Origin: Chloroflexota bacterium
GTDB taxonomy: Bacteria; Chloroflexota; Anaerolineae; Promineifilales; Promineifilaceae
Direction: 5' to 3'
Assembly (NCBI GenBank): GCA_018004935.1
Contig: JAGNBF010000062.1
Coordinates: 1 to 45,584, forward strand
Length of the DNA stretch: 45,584 bases
In this document: one piece after another, positions 127-30,556 of the stretch
Position numbering within the stretch: the first letter of the stretch is position 1
Layout: each line of letters opens with the position of its first letter
Program-made: the position numbers and the translations under genes
The notes under the pieces: generated by a model
Databases searched by the model: none
What the model saw: the letters and a program-made list of their open reading frames with translations, nothing else
What the model was told of the DNA's origin: nothing

Positions 127-206
127 TGGGTTGTCTCTTGACGGGATCGGGTGGTCTGGTAACATTCGCACAAGTAAAACATCTGTGCGAATAACTGAGG
201 GTGTGT

Positions 207-1907
207 ATGAACGAAGCGATTGGCTACATCGTCGGGGGTGGGTTAAAGGAAGGGTTCCGTATCCGGTTGACGGTTCCGGCGGAGACGGTGCAGGAAGGTA
301 GTTTTATGGTATGTGACAGCGGCCGCAACCGTTACTACGGCCTTGTCACCGATTTGCAATTGGGGGCTACCGATCCCCGCTTCGCCGATGAGCAACCCAC
401 TCGCCTGCAACCGGCCATCAGCCAGGCCCTGCTAGGCAAAACCCTGTACACCACCCTCAACGTCTACCCCACCCTGATGCTGGACACCGGCCCGGCGTTG
501 GGCACAACCGAGCGGCTGGAGTGGGAGCAACGGATCGATCAAGGTATCGAAAACCCTGGCCCCAAGCCGGTGAAAACCGTACCCGCCCATCATGCCCCGG
601 TACGCACCGCCGATGCCGGAGATGTGGCCGAGATTTTTGGGCAGGCAGGCAAGGGGATGTTCGTCGTCGGGCACACCATCGAACAGGGTCATCCCATCCG
701 CCTGGATTTGAACAAATTTGTGAAGCGTTCCAGTGGCATTTTTGGGGCTACAGGCACGGGGAAGAGTTTCCTGACCCGGATGGTGCTGGCGGGGCTGATG
801 CAGGAAGATGTCGCGGCCGCGTTGGTCTTTGACATGCACAACGAATATGGCCTGGACGACCTGGACACCGACAAAGGGCAGTCGGTACGAGGGTTGCGCT
901 CCCTCTTCCCGCGCAAGGTGCAAATCGCCGCTCTGGGTAAAGGAGCGATGGTGCGCGGCAAATCCCCCGATTTCACCCTGGAACTGGCCCTCAGCGACTT
1001 CACCACCAACGACATCAACCTGCTGGGCGAGTCGCTTAACCTGACCGATACTGCCGCTGTCACCCTCAACGCCCTGGAACGGGCTTTTGGCCTACACTGG
1101 TTTGCTGAGTTCATGAATTTGGAGCCGGGAGCTATGGAGTTTGACCCGGAAACGGGCAAATCGCGCCCGGCTCCTGGCTCGGTAGCTTACTGGGCACGGG
1201 ATAACAACATCAACGACAAAGCCGCCGAAGCCCTGCACCGCAAACTCAAACTGATCTACGACCGCCCCTATGTGGTGGAGAAACCGGTTATTGACGCCGT
1301 TACCGACATTGTGGACAAGTTAGAGAACGGCAAACACGTCATTCTCAGCTTTGGCGAGTATGAAAGCGACCTGGATTACCTGCTGGTGACGAACATCCTG
1401 ACCCGGCGCATCCGCCAGCATTGGGTGCATAAAACGGAGCGGCACAAGAGCCACGGCGCGGCCGCGCCCCGTCCCCTCGTCATCGCCATCGAAGAAGCCC
1501 ACAAACTGCTCAACCCCCAAATCGCCAGCCAGACCGCCTTCGGCACGATTGCCCGTGAGTTACGCAAATATTTTGTCACCCTGCTGGTGGTAGACCAACG
1601 TCCATCGGGCATTGACGACGAAATTTTGTCCCAGATTGGCACGCGCATTACCGGATGGCTGGGGGATGAAGACGACATCCGCGCCGTATTGACCGGATTG
1701 GCGGGACGGGAGCAGTTGCGCGGCATGTTGGCCCGGTTGCAGGAGAAAGAAGAGGTGCTTCTGCTAGGTTGGGGCGTCAAAATGCCCATTCCCATCCGTT
1801 CCCGCCGCTACGACGAGAAGTTCTACGCTGAGATCAACCTACGACCCGGCGGCCGCGGTCTCAGCGATCTCTCCATTGAAGAACTCAACAACGACCTTTT
1901 TGGCTAA
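207..1907 (+). CDS. herA: HerA-type ATP-dependent DNA translocase (DUF87)
   Basis: A 566-residue P-loop ATPase of the HerA/FtsK superfamily. HerA proteins form hexameric rings that translocate DNA and usually work with the NurA nuclease in double-strand-break end resection. Visible motifs are an N-terminal beta-barrel-like part (about residues 1-160), Walker A GATGTGKS near 180-187, FDMHNEYG just after it, Walker B ending IAIEEAH near 424-432, and a sensor-like VVDQRPSGID near 460. I chose ATG 207 because GAGG lies 6 bases upstream; a GTG at 201 is in frame but has no room for a ribosome-binding site. NurA is not in the window and could lie before it. The stop codon falls within the target duplication of the MITE that follows. 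Four GCGGCCGC octamers lie inside the gene. Confidence 0.88.
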   Translation: MNEAIGYIVGGGLKEGFRIRLTVPAETVQEGSFMVCDSGRNRYYGLVTDLQLGATDPRFADEQPTRLQPAISQALLGKTLYTTLNVYPTLMLDTGPALGTTERLEWEQRIDQGIENPGPKPVKTVPAHHAPVRTADAGDVAEIFGQAGKGMFVVGHTIEQGHPIRLDLNKFVKRSSGIFGATGTGKSFLTRMVLAGLMQEDVAAALVFDMHNEYGLDDLDTDKGQSVRGLRSLFPRKVQIAALGKGAMVRGKSPDFTLELALSDFTTNDINLLGESLNLTDTAAVTLNALERAFGLHWFAEFMNLEPGAMEFDPETGKSRPAPGSVAYWARDNNINDKAAEALHRKLKLIYDRPYVVEKPVIDAVTDIVDKLENGKHVILSFGEYESDLDYLLVTNILTRRIRQHWVHKTERHKSHGAAAPRPLVIAIEEAHKLLNPQIASQTAFGTIARELRKYFVTLLVVDQRPSGIDDEILSQIGTRITGWLGDEDDIRAVLTGLAGREQLRGMLARLQEKEEVLLLGWGVKMPIPIRSRRYDEKFYAEINLRPGGRGLSDLSIEELNNDLFG

Positions 1908-1943
1908 GGGTGTGTTTCATTTTGGTTGAGAGGAAGAAAATAA

Positions 1944-2045
1944 TGAGTCTACTGCAAAAAGCCCGGTTTCTGACTAATCTAACCGTCGCTTCCAGAGAGA
2001 AAGAAACCGGGCTTCTAACTGCTTTGACCTTTTTTCAGTGGTGTC
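1944..2045. repeat. Element B (copy 1)
   Basis: About 102 bp beginning TGAGTCTACTG, with internal arms AAGCCCGGTTTCT and AGAAACCGGGCTT and an end CAGTGGTGTC. A second copy in opposite orientation lies at 30449-30549, so this is a dispersed small repeat, here nested in MITE A. Confidence 0.8.
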
Positions 2046-2070
2046 AATAATTAATTCGTTGAATTCGTGA

Positions 2071-2164
2071 GTAAGCGTTCAGTTCCCTGAGAGAATGAAC
2101 CTTCCGAAGGTTTCCGAAAAGGTATTTACCAGTGGTACAGACCTTCGGAAGGCTGAACGCTTAC
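2071..2164. repeat. Element C (copy 1), 12-bp perfect terminal inverted repeats
   Basis: Terminal repeats GTAAGCGTTCAG (2071-2082) and CTGAACGCTTAC (2153-2164) are exact complements. The interior carries CCTTCCGAAGG and CCTTCGGAAGG. The related copy at 30312-30403 is flanked by an 8-bp direct repeat. Confidence 0.85.
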
Positions 2165-2325
2165 CAGTTCAACAGTTCAATAATTAATTATTCAACTCAT
2201 TTGAAACACACTTTTGGGCTAATTATGAATAACGATACACGTCCTTGAAGGCAGAACTTGTCGAAGCCCGGCTCCCCCTTCGACAAACTCAGGCAAAGCC
2301 GTACACCACCTGTCTGGATACAATT

Positions 2326-3138
2326 ATGAAACCTTTTCTCAAATGGGCAGGTGGTAAATACCGACTTGTTGAACGCATTAAAGCCGCCTTGCCCTCTGGC
2401 AAACGGTGGATTGAGCCATTTATTGGCTCCGGAGCTGTATTTCTTAATGCTGATTACCCGGTGTATCTCCTGGCCGACAGTAACCCCGATTTAATCAACC
2501 TTTATCGTTATCTCCAGGCCGAGGGGCCAGATTTCATTGCCTATTGCCGCACCTTTTTTCAGCCGGAACAGAACGAAAAATCAGCCTTTTACGCCTGGCG
2601 TGAGCAGTTCAACCAGACCGAAAATTGCCGTGAAAAGGCGGCGTTGTTTCTTTACCTAAACAAACACGGGTACAATGGTTTGTGCCGTTATAACAGCCGG
2701 GGGAAATTTAATGTCCCCTTTGGTCGTTATAAACAGGCGCATTTTCCCGAAGCAGAGATGATTTTTTTCTGGCAGAAAGCCCAACGGGCGGAGTTTTGCC
2801 AGGGAACGTTTCCGGGAACGCTCGCGGCCGCGACCCCCGGCGATGTCGTCTACTGTGATCCCCCTTACCACGCCCTCTCCAAAACTGCTAACTTCACCAG
2901 CTACAGTGACACCCCTTTTGGCTGGGCACAACAAGAACAATTAGCTGATATGGCGCGAGAACTGGCTAACCGAGGCATTCCCGTCCTCATCTCTAACCAC
3001 AACACAGACGAAATTCGCGAGTTATACGCTGGCGCACAAATCACCGAGTTTTTTGTCCAGCGGTTCATCAGTTGCGATGGTGCGAATCGTCAAAAAGCGC
3101 CTGAACTCCTGGCCTATTTTGCGCCCACAAAAAAATAG
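2326..3138 (+). CDS. dam: DNA adenine methylase, Dam / D12 class
   Basis: A 270-residue N6-adenine methyltransferase of the alpha (D12) class; Dam relatives methylate GATC. The AdoMet motif is seen in FLKWAGGK (residues 4-11) and the catalytic motif in DPPY (about 177-180); length is normal. The frame is open upstream to 2245, but those 27 residues are encoded by a dispersed repeat with arms like CTTGTCGAAG, so ATG 2326, directly before the conserved KPFLKWAGGK, is the likely start. No restriction endonuclease gene is adjacent, so it is a solitary methylase. It is bracketed by two inverted MITE A copies, which raises the possibility that it moved or could move with them. The target sequence cannot be read from the protein. 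Confidence 0.93.
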   Translation: MKPFLKWAGGKYRLVERIKAALPSGKRWIEPFIGSGAVFLNADYPVYLLADSNPDLINLYRYLQAEGPDFIAYCRTFFQPEQNEKSAFYAWREQFNQTENCREKAALFLYLNKHGYNGLCRYNSRGKFNVPFGRYKQAHFPEAEMIFFWQKAQRAEFCQGTFPGTLAAATPGDVVYCDPPYHALSKTANFTSYSDTPFGWAQQEQLADMARELANRGIPVLISNHNTDEIRELYAGAQITEFFVQRFISCDGANRQKAPELLAYFAPTKK

Positions 3139-3186
3139 CTGGCAGAACAACGTGTTTGAGATTGACGATTCAATAACTTAAACAGG

Positions 3187-3233
3187 TGCTGTGGACAATC
3201 CTCTGACCGTGCCACCCAGGTTATTTTTGGACG
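3187..3233. repeat. Family I repeat, degenerate copy
   Basis: GCTGTGGACAATCCTCTGACC followed by GTGCCACCCAGG and TTATTTTTGGACG matches the core and right arm of family I (see 27967-28040). The left arm is not recognisable. Confidence 0.6.
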
Positions 3234-3330
3234 CTTCCTTAGGGCCTGTAAACTTGAGTTTAGAGTTCAGAGCCAGAGGATTTTCCAGATTAGTTTCCTC
3301 TCGCTCTCTCCTCTCGCTCTAAACTCCAGT

Positions 3331-3400
3331 AAAAGATTAAGTTCCGTCAAGACCTGACAGATTTCCGAAAACCTGTCAGGTCTAAACCGGGAAGTTAAAT
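3331..3400. repeat. Element F (GACCTGACAG palindrome), copy 1
   Basis: GACCTGACAGATTTCCGAAA followed by ACCTGTCAGGTC forms a long hairpin. The same sequence, including flanks reading AAGATTAAG and CCGGGAAGTT, occurs in inverse orientation near 28065-28130; a short version lies at 35372-35405. Confidence 0.75.
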
Positions 3401-3406
3401 TAGAGT

Positions 3407-3495
3407 TTATCGGTAATAACCTGCCGAAGGTTTATGTCAACTGACTACGCAAAGGTACAAACCTTCGGCAGGTTTCCAAATGCTATTACCGATAA
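3407..3495. repeat. Element C2 (TATCGGTAATA termini), copy 1
   Basis: Terminal inverted repeats TATCGGTAATA (3408-3418) and TATTACCGATA (3484-3494) enclose CCTGCCGAAGG and CCTTCGGCAGG. A second copy with the same ends lies at 36587-36673. Confidence 0.85.
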
Positions 3496-3528
3496 TGTCT
3501 ATTTTTACGAACCCTCAGTACAGTTTGT

Positions 3529-3775
3529 TCCTACGAAAATGTAGGGCGGTTTGGTAAAGTGTGTGTTTCAAAGGAGTTGAATAATTAATCGTTGAACTGT
3601 TGAACTGTTCCTGAAACGGTAGACGTTCCCCTCGTTAATCATTCAACAATGCACAAATTCACCGATTAATTATTTTCTTCCTCTTAACCGAAATGAAACA
3701 CACCCTTTGGTAAATCGCCCAGTGGACGATTTAAAAAATCGTCTCACAAATTTTCATTCCGTTTGGTGAGTACCT
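3529..3775. repeat. Element D copy 1, split by MITE A
   Basis: The left part TCCTACGAAAATGTAGGGCG (3529-3548) and the right part ending in TTTTCATTCCGTTTGGTGAG match the intact element D at 8715-8797. MITE A (3559-3705) sits inside it, so the insertion is younger than D. Confidence 0.75.
3559..3705. mobile_element. MITE A copy 2, intact, 9-bp target duplication
   Basis: 147 bp with ends GTGTGTTTCA and TGAAACACACC. It is flanked by a perfect 9-bp direct repeat TTTGGTAAA (3550-3558 and 3706-3714). It lies in inverse orientation to copy 1 (1908-2213) across the dam gene. Confidence 0.85.
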
Positions 3776-3911
3776 GCCCTTCTACAAAATTGGGGCGGGC
3801 GTCTTTGCCCAAATCGAAAAAAACCTGGCGGAACGGGAGCCAGTGGAGCCAGAAGCTGGTTTGACGCCCGAAGTAGTAGCCCCGTGGCGCGAACGGAGGG
3901 CGCGAAAGTAG
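3735..3911 (+). pseudogene. Possible C-terminal gene fragment
   Basis: An open frame running out of element D encodes about 45 residues of ordinary protein-like sequence (YLPFYKIGAGVFAQIEKNLA, then a charged tail ending RERRARK) and stops at 3909-3911. There is no sensible start, and the first codons lie in repeat DNA, so it looks like the tail of a gene whose front was lost when element D inserted. I do not recognise the family. It could be chance. Confidence 0.35.
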
Positions 3912-3970
3912 GTCTGGTTAACGCGGCCGCATCCCTCGACAATCCCCATCGCAACGAGTACGATCTCCAG

Positions 3971-4651
3971 ATGGCTGGCAATATCATTCTCTTCCTCGGC
4001 GCGTCCTTTTTTTTGTGGCTGGTGCAACGTTTTGGGCCAAACCCGGAGCGGCCGCGACAACATCGGCTCTACCTGACGATCTTTGCCCTGTTTTGCTCCG
4101 TACTATTGCTATTTAACGCCCTGCTGGCCTACTTGATTTACGATAGCCTGTACATTACCGCCAACCTTCCCCCCACTACATCCCCTACCCAACTCGATGA
4201 GTTGCCACAAGGTGATCCCGTTAATGTTGTGGGAACCATCAGCCCCAATAATCCCATCCTGGTCGAGAATTACGTAGCTTACTATGATTGCATTGACACC
4301 ACTTGTTACCCCGATTTACCCCCTCAACTTCTTATCCATGTAGAAGATGGGGAAATTGTAATCAGCAACAATAGTTATGAAGACCATTCCTGGCCTGAAG
4401 AAGCGAATGTTTATTACCTGGCCCCTGAGCAACCCGTGGTTGTGGCCGGAACGGTTGTGCATTCGGCAGATGAGGTCACAGTCGAGGGAGCAATTGTATT
4501 TGCCGGATCGTATGATCTGTTTGTCCGTCTGGCGCAAAACCAACAAATTGTGCCGCTCATCTTGATGGGGGCTAACCTGTTCGCGGCCGCGGCCGGTCTC
4601 TTCATCACCTTCTCCCTCTTCCGCTTTATGACCAGGCCAATCAACGGATGA
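3971..4651 (+). CDS. Two-helix membrane protein with extracytoplasmic domain
   Basis: About 226 residues and not a family I recognise. The layout is clear: an N-terminal pair of membrane segments (about residues 2-19 and 30-56), a soluble domain of about 110 residues (60-180) probably outside the membrane, and a C-terminal membrane segment (about 200-220) ending FRFMTRPING. The middle domain reads like a small OB-like fold of the type seen in membrane proteins with a VxGTI strand, but this is a guess. ATG 3971 opens directly into the first membrane segment; an upstream GTG at 3884 would add 29 residues partly read through GCGGCCGC (3923) and overlap the preceding fragment, so I prefer 3971. 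No strong ribosome-binding site is seen at either start. Confidence 0.65.
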   Translation: MAGNIILFLGASFFLWLVQRFGPNPERPRQHRLYLTIFALFCSVLLLFNALLAYLIYDSLYITANLPPTTSPTQLDELPQGDPVNVVGTISPNNPILVENYVAYYDCIDTTCYPDLPPQLLIHVEDGEIVISNNSYEDHSWPEEANVYYLAPEQPVVVAGTVVHSADEVTVEGAIVFAGSYDLFVRLAQNQQIVPLILMGANLFAAAAGLFITFSLFRFMTRPING

Positions 4652-4832
4652 GCAATTCAGCCTTTCAGAGTCACTATTCAGGTGTCAGAACTTATTCCCA
4701 CGCCGAACATGGAATACAGTGGCAACAGGCATAATCTGCGGTTTTTTGCCCTGTTGCGTCGGGTATATCTGAGGCCACCCCTAACCCTGCACTCAGGGGC
4801 GGGGGAATTATTTGTATATAGCTATCCCCAAC

Positions 4833-5492
4833 ATGACCAAACGGTATCCCATCCCCGCCCAGGAAACACGCGCCGAGATTGAGGTGCTAAAGAGCCGGTT
4901 TGTGGCCGCGGCCGCACCTGCATTCACTGTCGAAGAAGCCAAACTATTCATCCAGCGCATCAAAACCGAATTTAGCGATGCCAGCCACAATGTGCCCGCT
5001 TTTCTTGTAGGTTTTGGCTCTTCTGTTGTGGCACATTGCCACGATGACGGCGAACCCTCAGGCACAGCCGGGCGTCCCATGCTGGCCGTACTCCAGGGGA
5101 GTGGGTTGGGGGATATTTGTGTGGTCGTAACGCGCTACTTTGGGGGGATTAAGCTGGGAACCGGGGGATTAGTGCGGGCCTATGGGGATGCGGTGAAGGC
5201 GGTATTGGCGATTTTGCCCCGGGCGGAAAAGGTGCCTACTCATACAGTAATGCTCGTTTATCCTTACACGTATATTGAGCGCATCCGCCTGTTAGTGGCA
5301 GAACATCACGGCCAGATTCTGGAGGAAGATTTTGCCGGGGATGTCACACTTACGGCCCAATTTATCACCGAAGATTACCCGCCGTTTCAAGAAACCCTGC
5401 GTGAAATGTCCCATGGTTCACTCACCGCCGAGATTGTCGTTACCGATGAGGCCACCATCATGCCATTGGCGTCAAACAGCCCGACCGGGTAA
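4833..5492 (+). CDS. yigZ: YigZ / IMPACT family protein
   Basis: 219 residues, full length for the YigZ/UPF0029 family, which has been implicated in translation-related nucleic acid binding but whose bacterial role is not settled. The family signatures are DGEPSGTAGRPML (about residues 68-80) and TRYFGGIKLGTGGL (about 95-108), followed by a C-terminal ferredoxin-like (DUF1949-type) half. ATG 4833 gives the usual N-terminus; an in-frame TTG at 4812 has GGGGG at a good distance and cannot be ruled out. A GCGGCCGC octamer at 4908 encodes an Ala run between helix 1 and the core domain. The 180 bases before it contain nothing I can name. Confidence 0.92.
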   Translation: MTKRYPIPAQETRAEIEVLKSRFVAAAAPAFTVEEAKLFIQRIKTEFSDASHNVPAFLVGFGSSVVAHCHDDGEPSGTAGRPMLAVLQGSGLGDICVVVTRYFGGIKLGTGGLVRAYGDAVKAVLAILPRAEKVPTHTVMLVYPYTYIERIRLLVAEHHGQILEEDFAGDVTLTAQFITEDYPPFQETLREMSHGSLTAEIVVTDEATIMPLASNSPTG

Positions 5493-8714: not shown

Positions 8715-8797
8715 TCCTACGAAAATGTAGGGCGATTTGGTAAATCGTTCGGGCGATTTACCAAATCGCCCTACAAATTTTCATTCCATTTGGTGAG
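8715..8797. repeat. Element D copy 2, perfect 21-bp hairpin
   Basis: The arms 8727-8747 and 8754-8774 are perfect complements (GTAGGGCGATTTGGTAAATC and onward) around a 6-base loop TTCGGG. The unit starts at the aminotransferase ribosome-binding region and could form in its 5' leader. The rest of 8798-8958 holds a short direct repeat of ACTCGCAAACTCGC and no gene. Confidence 0.85.
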
Positions 8798-30139: not shown

Positions 30140-30556
30140 GTCTACTGAAAAAAGGAACCGCCAAGACGCTGAGAATGCTAAGTCATCGTTCAGAAATAAC
30201 GTGGGTGGCGCGGTCAGGAGACCGGTCACAGCAAACCCCTAAGTTAAAAACGAACGATTATTAAGAACGGAAGAAATCCAGAGAAAATCTTTGTGATCTT
30301 GGCATCTTAGCGTAAGTGTTCAGTTCCCTGAGAAAAAGAGCCTTCTGAAGGTTTCCGCAAAGGTGTTGACCAGTGGTACAAACCTTCGGAAGGCTGAACT
30401 TACGTCTTAGCGATGAAAAATCTCATTCTTTCAGTGAAGTCACTAATGACTCCACTGAAAAAAGGTCAAAGCAGTTAAAAGCCCGGTTTCTTTCTCTCTG
30501 GAAGCGACGGTTAGATGAGTCAGAAACCGGGCTTTTTGCAGTAGACTCACTAATTA
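30140..30556. repeat. Nest of repeats: AACCGCCAAGACGC repeat split by families I and C, then B
   Basis: The fragments AACCGCCAAGACGC (30157) and TTGTGATCTTGGCATCTTAG (30290) are the two halves of a hairpin repeat. Family I (30185-30258) and element C (30312-30403, flanked by TCTTAGCG direct repeats at 30305 and 30405) have inserted. Element B (30449-30549) follows in inverse orientation to copy 1. No gene from 30067 to 30556. Confidence 0.8.

Follow-up and report, generated by a model that had tools for sequence, protein, structure and literature searches.

Bacterial miniature inverted-repeat transposable elements (MITEs) are short, gene-less elements with terminal inverted repeats, flanked by duplications and present in many copies. 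We analysed one such family, here called MITE A, two copies of which lie on either side of a dam gene in a 45,584-bp stretch of DNA from a Chloroflexota bacterium of the Promineifilaceae (contig JAGNBF010000062.1). This stretch, hereafter the window, is contig C20 of genome G000, an assembly of 7.98 Mb in 229 contigs that is 96.6% complete.

Among described systems, the ISKra4 group of insertion sequences (ISs) is classed as p-MULT 4 of the prokaryotic Mutator-like transposases (Guerillot et al., 2014, PMC3942029); the relevant sections of that paper give inverted repeats of 18–39 bp, duplications of 8 or 9 bp and Chloroflexi among the host phyla, and describe 13 ISs of the group as inserted upstream of sigmaA promoters. 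ISs that target repetitive extragenic palindromes (REPs) are known from the IS3, IS110, IS4, IS256 and IS5 families, as set out in the part of the survey by Tobes and Pareja (2006, PMC1525189) drawn on here. GTAG-tagged REPs, with a one-sided GTAG, a short loop and an occurrence as dimers and in tandem clusters, are described in the corresponding part of PMC3733652 from phyla that include Chloroflexi.

At the window locus and across its genome we observed shared element ends, 9-bp duplications, a target bias and a high copy number, and ISs with the same ends were present in sister genera. From these we infer mobilisation in trans by an ISKra4 transposase that would now be absent from, or unassembled in, this genome. 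The reading that we favour, with a probability of roughly 0.87, is that MITE A is ISKra4-derived, is moved in trans and prefers TTTnnnAAA at the centres of REPs, and that the two window copies are independent insertions of which dam is not the cargo.

Results

Two MITE A insertions at the herA-dam locus

The features of the locus are the following.

201–1907, plus strand: herA-like ATPase gene (Pfam DUF87, E = 7.8e-25), stop codon TAA at 1905–1907
1899–1907, no strand: left target duplication of copy 1, TTTGGCTAA, which holds the herA stop codon
1908–2213, plus strand: MITE A copy 1, 306 bp with two nested inserts included
2214–2222, no strand: right target duplication of copy 1, TTGGGCTAA, matching the left one at 8 of 9 bases
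2326–3138, plus strand: Dam-family adenine methyltransferase gene (TIGR00571, E = 3.3e-86; Pfam MethyltransfD12)
3540–3558, plus strand: GTAG-tagged REP, left half, TGTAGGGCGGTTTGGTAAA, with the target duplication at 3550–3558 as its last 9 bases
3559–3705, minus strand: MITE A copy 2, 147 bp, interrupting the GTAG-tagged REP at its centre
3706–3719, plus strand: right target duplication TTTGGTAAA (3706–3714), then the right REP half TCGCC
3725–3743, plus strand: second REP of the pair, intact, GACGATTTAAAAAATCGTC

An earlier sequence-only reading had placed two inverted copies of one element at 1908–2213 and 3559–3705, and both the sequence and a repeat search bear these coordinates out (inverted arms 1899–1949/3664–3714, 86% complementary, and 2165–2211/3561–3607, 94%). 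The copies do share their ends, the terminal inverted repeat being about 22 bp rather than the 10 bp first noted. The 9-bp duplications that it had described are also present, perfect around copy 2 (TTTGGTAAA at 3550–3558 and 3706–3714) and with one mismatch around copy 1, whose right terminal bases are TT where the consensus has CC. As it had further proposed, the left duplication of copy 1 supplies the stop codon of herA. The same 9-mer TTTGGCTAA closes herA in 2 of 80 relatives (L102 and L132; the best 80 of 302 related stretches, 67 of the 80 having at least 1.5 kb downstream), and herA ends in LFG, as in the window, in 9 of the 12 relatives read, so the duplication seems to have given herA its original end back. 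Copy 1 is longer than copy 2 because of two later inserts (1945–2045 and 2071–2164). When copy 2 and its flanks were folded as DNA, one stem was obtained, the lowest part of which is formed by the REP halves (z = -4.94; none of 200 shuffled sequences did as well): since the target is palindromic and the element ends are inverted, the split REP halves stay paired under a longer hairpin.

MITE A is a dispersed family

An internal anchor pattern, GTGTGTTTCATTTN(10–30)GAAAATAA, had 57 exact matches in the genome and none in the reversed control, so the repetition is beyond chance. An 11-base end pattern matched 169 times (control 2), and further regions for study were picked from 100 of these 169 places. 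The consensus is 155 bp long and comes from an alignment of 27 rows that represent 26 distinct copies, window copy 2 being present twice, as L031 and as W2. The median identity between copy and consensus is 96%, and copy 2 reaches 92%. At 22 of the 57 anchors a right end was found whose 9-bp flank matches the left one with at most one mismatch. Pooling the pattern matches with the L031–L060 set gave 44 distinct same-end insertions with such duplications in the own-genome DNA examined, a catalogue of all same-end elements and not of MITE A alone. A sister family of 238–243 bp also has MITE A ends (7 elements; 6 with perfect duplications, 1 with one mismatch); in it CGATTT precedes the element on the left in 7/7, a count that leaves out L335 (179 bp, in another palindrome) and L336 (466 bp, flanks unmatched). 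MITE A is thus short and gene-less, with terminal inverted repeats, matched duplications and many dispersed copies, and the separate matched duplications together with the dispersal support what the sequence-only reading had suggested, a MITE inserted twice independently.

Two places near contig ends, L065 and L070, were considered as a possible autonomous element and rejected: their listed frames hold no recognised transposase, and the MITE A pieces there adjoin another repeat. A distinct palindromic repeat with a GGGGCATTTTTC stem lies close by in both. The 179-bp same-end element of L335 (193–371) interrupts a different palindrome, AAACCTGTCAGGTTT, at its centre, and a hairpin related to that palindrome occurs in the window at 3350–3383.

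REP palindromes as insertion targets

Because the query that yielded L031–L060 contained REP flanks, target counts were taken on the 57 pattern matches, the pattern itself being free of such flanks. Both window targets had been fitted to TTTGGnnAA; the commonest form is instead TTTnnnAAA, exact in 36/57 left flanks. CGATTT, a REP half on the scored flank, was found in 30/57, and the left 8-mer GRCGATTT was exact in 28/57, with one mismatch in 9 more.

The palindrome to which this flank belongs is abundant. Its core, CGATTTNNNAAATCG, occurs 983 times in the window's own genome, and counts in the remaining 51 family genomes are 0–276 (0–4 for the reversed control; the comparison set is 52 family genomes, G000 included, and holds no second genome of the window's genus); the REP motif GNCGATTTNNNAAATCGNC has 965 genome matches and 0 reversed. 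The highest core counts outside the window's genome are those of G023 and G024 (genus g12), 276 and 257. In the own-genome DNA examined, GTAG flanks 57 of 63 distinct palindromes on a single side, 6 lack it and 0 have it on both sides. Distinct inverted pairs at 2- or 5-nt spacing numbered 19, all of them made up of a GGC palindrome and a GAC palindrome; the single-sided tag and the inverted dimers are those of GTAG-tagged REPs. In one region (L287:280–1203) a 102-bp unit is repeated 9.1 times in tandem, with one REP pair per unit. The window itself contains the empty form of the target:

8726–8775, plus strand: uninterrupted REP pair, one palindrome with one mismatch

Folded as RNA, this pair gave z = -10.9.

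A REP-associated tyrosine transposase (RAYT) was considered as the mover of the REPs. The own genome yielded one partial PF01797 match (G000:C65:3416–3664; 31.4 bits, cut-off 23; positions 17–105 of 121, in a 389-aa frame), and the PF01797 search gave no clear RAYT gene there. Similar partial matches are present in frames of ~380–455 aa in a number of other family genomes.

As the REP halves extend the inverted repeat beyond the element, the 9-bp repeats could in principle be part of a longer terminal inverted repeat that takes in the REP halves, and not target duplications at all. The central triplets are direct, however, not inverted, and vary by copy (GGT/GGT, GGC/GGC, ACC/ACC, GTT/GTT), and on this ground the candidate was rejected. 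Moreover, where a copy lies outside REPs its flanks are unrelated (AATGACATT, CCTGTCAGG), and the 983 REP cores of the genome include uninterrupted REPs. We give this explanation next to no probability and treat the repeats as target duplications.

MITE A ends enclose ISKra4-family transposase genes in sister genera

The sequence-only reading had called for a transposase with matching ends elsewhere in the genome. Such elements were found in sister genera: ISs with MITE A-type ends there enclose transposase genes of the ISKra4 family (L193 from G016, 1626 bp; L181 from G021; L182 from G013; L183 from G007, 1575 bp). Over 22 bases of the left end, L193 and L181 each differ from the MITE A consensus by 1 mismatch and L182 by 0; over 22 bases of the right end all three have 0 mismatches, and the left/right asymmetry (ATTTC, AAATG) is kept. 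In L183 one end is identical and the other has 5 mismatches. Against the NCBIfam model NF033572 (ISKra4; cut-off 205 bits), 4 of 5 proteins scored above the cut-off (L099 289, L183 271, L181 286 and L182 293 bits) and the L193 protein below it, at 174 bits. Flanks were compared for L183 and L193, the L181 and L182 sequences stopping at the right end of the element; L183 is flanked by perfect 9-bp duplications, ATTAAATTG, a length shared with window copy 2 and other MITE A copies. With the G016 protein as query, matches at E = 0.001 or better were obtained in 13 of the 52 family genomes.

Findings against the reading, and the preference for REP centres

Several findings weigh against the reading given at the outset. 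Seven of the 29 anchors with a best-candidate right-end motif have unmatched flanks (2–7 mismatches; L232, L233, L236, L241, L252, L263 and L272; the candidate end in L252 is probably spurious); such flanks could arise by recombination between copies. A further 28 of the 57 anchors have no right-end candidate in the flanking DNA examined (e.g., L234, L235, L239; within L232–L286), and in some of these the contig ends or another repeat comes next. The flanks of IS L193 are unmatched. The window's own genome gave no match in the same transposase search (E = 0.001), so the enzyme is proposed from the sister genera, and MITE A is either an orphan in this genome or has its driver in an assembly gap. 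Lastly, the target statistics include two points of the same kind. In the own genome CGA precedes 28/36 TTTnnnAAA targets, REP cores making up 983 of 4187 TTTnnnAAA sites (raw P = 9e-12); this value is doubtful because many non-REP sites may lie in genes, and P becomes 0.02 if 20% of the non-REP sites are usable and 0.46 if 10% are. In the relatives G016–G019, two of 9 REP targets are the two ends of one element.

These statistics bear on a rival explanation, in which the MITE has no taste for REPs and needs TTTnnnAAA outside genes, REPs being just the commonest such sites. The loss of the own-genome excess at 10% usable sites speaks for this, as do the insertions outside REPs. By a strict rule the 44 catalogued insertions divide into 28 in REPs and 16 elsewhere, L281 among the latter being a plain REP variant; the 16 keep the inner symmetry of the target (2.69 of 4 pairs, background 0.96), and their outer symmetry is not clear (1.38 vs 1.00, P = 0.064). 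The relatives G016–G019 decide the question better than the own genome. There, TTTnnnAAA is the target at 13 of 25 anchors; CGA precedes 9 of the 13, which are REP cores, against 248 of 9165 sites (2.7%); P is 3e-4 even at 10% usable sites, and 1e-3 when the element with two REP ends is counted singly (8/12). We therefore regard the rival as unlikely, and landing in REP centres looks like a preference. Recognition of palindromes of any kind was also considered and rejected: the targets AATGACATT and CCTGTCAGG lie in other palindromes, yet the outer symmetry just given is not significant.

dam is best seen as a bystander

The two MITE A copies might instead have brought dam in as a composite unit, in the manner of an IS pair with its cargo. 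Consistent with this, dam is flanked by inverted copies, whose outer flanks agree at 7/9 bases (TTTGGCTAA/TTTGGTAAA, by eye), and just 1 of the 80 relatives has a dam-like gene on the downstream side of herA (L109, 34% identity), so dam may be a later arrival. A weak dam-like match lies upstream of herA in L153 (26%), and the next two genes of the window (3884–4651 and 4812–5492) are at none of the 80 herA loci, some flanks being short. However, no single duplication surrounds the whole unit and each copy has a matched duplication of its own; the 7/9 agreement is what a shared target rule predicts; and copy 2 lies inside a REP half, with the other half coming right after it. The copies are dispersed, moreover, and at their density a pair within 1.76 kb is expected ~0.7 times (57 copies) or 1.6 times (85 elements); two other places in the genome hold MITE A copies within 3.1 kb of each other. 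On the separate duplications and the copy density we reject a composite transposon with dam, to which we assign a very small probability, and the view of dam as cargo, raised by the sequence-only reading, is given up given these duplications, the 57 dispersed anchors and the expected number of close pairs. That reading had also asked for relatives with dam but without MITE A at this locus, and this could be answered in part: the five nearest dam relatives (59–64% identity; G026–G029 and G042) show neither an exact MITE A end nor a REP core in the DNA examined around them (up to 1.5 kb on either side, less upstream in L207), but none of them is beside herA. dam is best seen as a bystander of two independent MITE A insertions.

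Inserts nested in copy 1

Copy 1 contains the following inserts.

1939–1944, no strand: left 6-bp duplication of MITE B, AATAAT
1945–2045, plus strand: nested MITE B, ends GAGTCTACTG / GACACCACTG
2046–2051, no strand: right 6-bp duplication of MITE B, AATAAT
2071–2164, no strand: nested palindromic repeat C, with a 12-bp perfect terminal inverted repeat GTAAGCGTTCAG

With 40 of 458 candidates scored, MITE B had matches at no fewer than 39 further sites of the genome, and its copies in L008 and L009 also have 6-bp duplications (by eye). A second B copy in the window (30430–30555; B ends GAGTCYACTG) adjoins repeat-C-like DNA at 30312–30399. DNA similar to repeat C occurs at several other places in the genome; no duplication was seen around it in copy 1, and ~45 bp of other MITE A copies are apparently missing at its site (by eye). 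Related hairpins at 3418–3474 and, inside repeat C, at 2098–2152 are 71% alike over 55 nt. An Rfam scan of the window returned no family at the gathering thresholds.

MITE E carries a REP pair and also enters REPs

A further element, MITE E, is 119 bp long (117 in L360), with ends GGCATGGTTCA (pattern GGCRTGGTTCA) and a REP pair as its core. By the strict end pattern seven distinct copies were obtained and read by eye:

L288:271–389, MITE E
L289:330–448, MITE E
L340:565–683, MITE E
L360:540–656, MITE E
L037:2793–2911, MITE E
L051:1373–1491, MITE E
L022:1279–1397, MITE E

Six of the seven have 8-bp duplications, and three are inside a REP (L288, L340 and L051). In the L360 copy the core pairs an intact REP with a REP half that carries a MITE A remnant. 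Among 21 distinct REP pairs taken with 70 bp of flank, 16 are in the array-type unit (several of these stem from one array on contig C11), 3 are in E by a script rule and 2 are E-like by eye. Since E carries a REP pair and lands in REPs, REPs may spread as the cores of MITEs and then serve as landing pads. That REP hairpins are a shared landing pad, itself spread by the mini-transposon E, is a tentative idea that we consider rather doubtful. If it were true, every E insertion would supply fresh targets for E and MITE A, repeats would nest like Russian dolls in hairpin centres, each hairpin being lengthened yet kept, and REP pairs would spread without a RAYT transposase.

Discussion

In the mechanism that we propose, MITE A would be non-autonomous and derive from an IS of the ISKra4 family (p-MULT 4, prokaryotic Mutator-like). 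Its 22-bp ends, GGGTGTGTTTCAWWTSRGTTGA, would be recognised by a transposase supplied in trans. Insertion would take place at TTTnnnAAA, a 9-bp target with two-fold symmetry that is duplicated in the process. The preferred form of this target would be the centre of the GTAG-tagged REP palindrome GRCGATTTnnnAAATCGYC, of which there are ~980 in the genome. Copy 2 split such a REP. Copy 1 went into the end of herA, where the target fits less well, and the duplication seems to have restored the stop codon. Landing in a hairpin centre may be tolerated because the hairpin is kept.

By its ends, an orphan MITE family can be tied to a transposase family. On this reading the few transposons that target REPs would be joined by a Mutator-like (ISKra4) system, from a lineage represented among its close relatives here almost entirely by metagenome assemblies. 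The reading suggests a way for genomes to bear many nested repeats cheaply, by entry into hairpin centres or a stop codon with the split part restored. It also corrects the record of the locus, where dam no longer has the look of a mobile cargo of the MITE A repeats. Full-text literature searches, judged on titles and abstract openings and with most subscription papers outside their scope, returned no ISKra4 MITE that targets REPs.

Compared with the ISKra4 group as characterised in the sections of PMC3942029 cited above, MITE A is alike in having inverted repeats within 18–39 bp, 9-bp duplications and a Chloroflexi host, and unlike it in having no transposase gene and in its symmetric target TTTnnnAAA, often inside a REP. 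With the REP-targeting ISs it shares entry into a REP with target duplication, ISRm22 having been placed at the axis of symmetry (PMC1525189); here, in contrast, the inserting unit is a MITE, the association is partial, and ISKra4 is not among the families named in that part of the survey. The REPs of the window's genome share the GTAG tag, the short loop, the dimers and the clusters with those described in the corresponding part of PMC3733652, a match by description and not by family sequences. MITE A is, overall, an ordinary bacterial MITE save for its REP landing sites and its nesting with other repeats.

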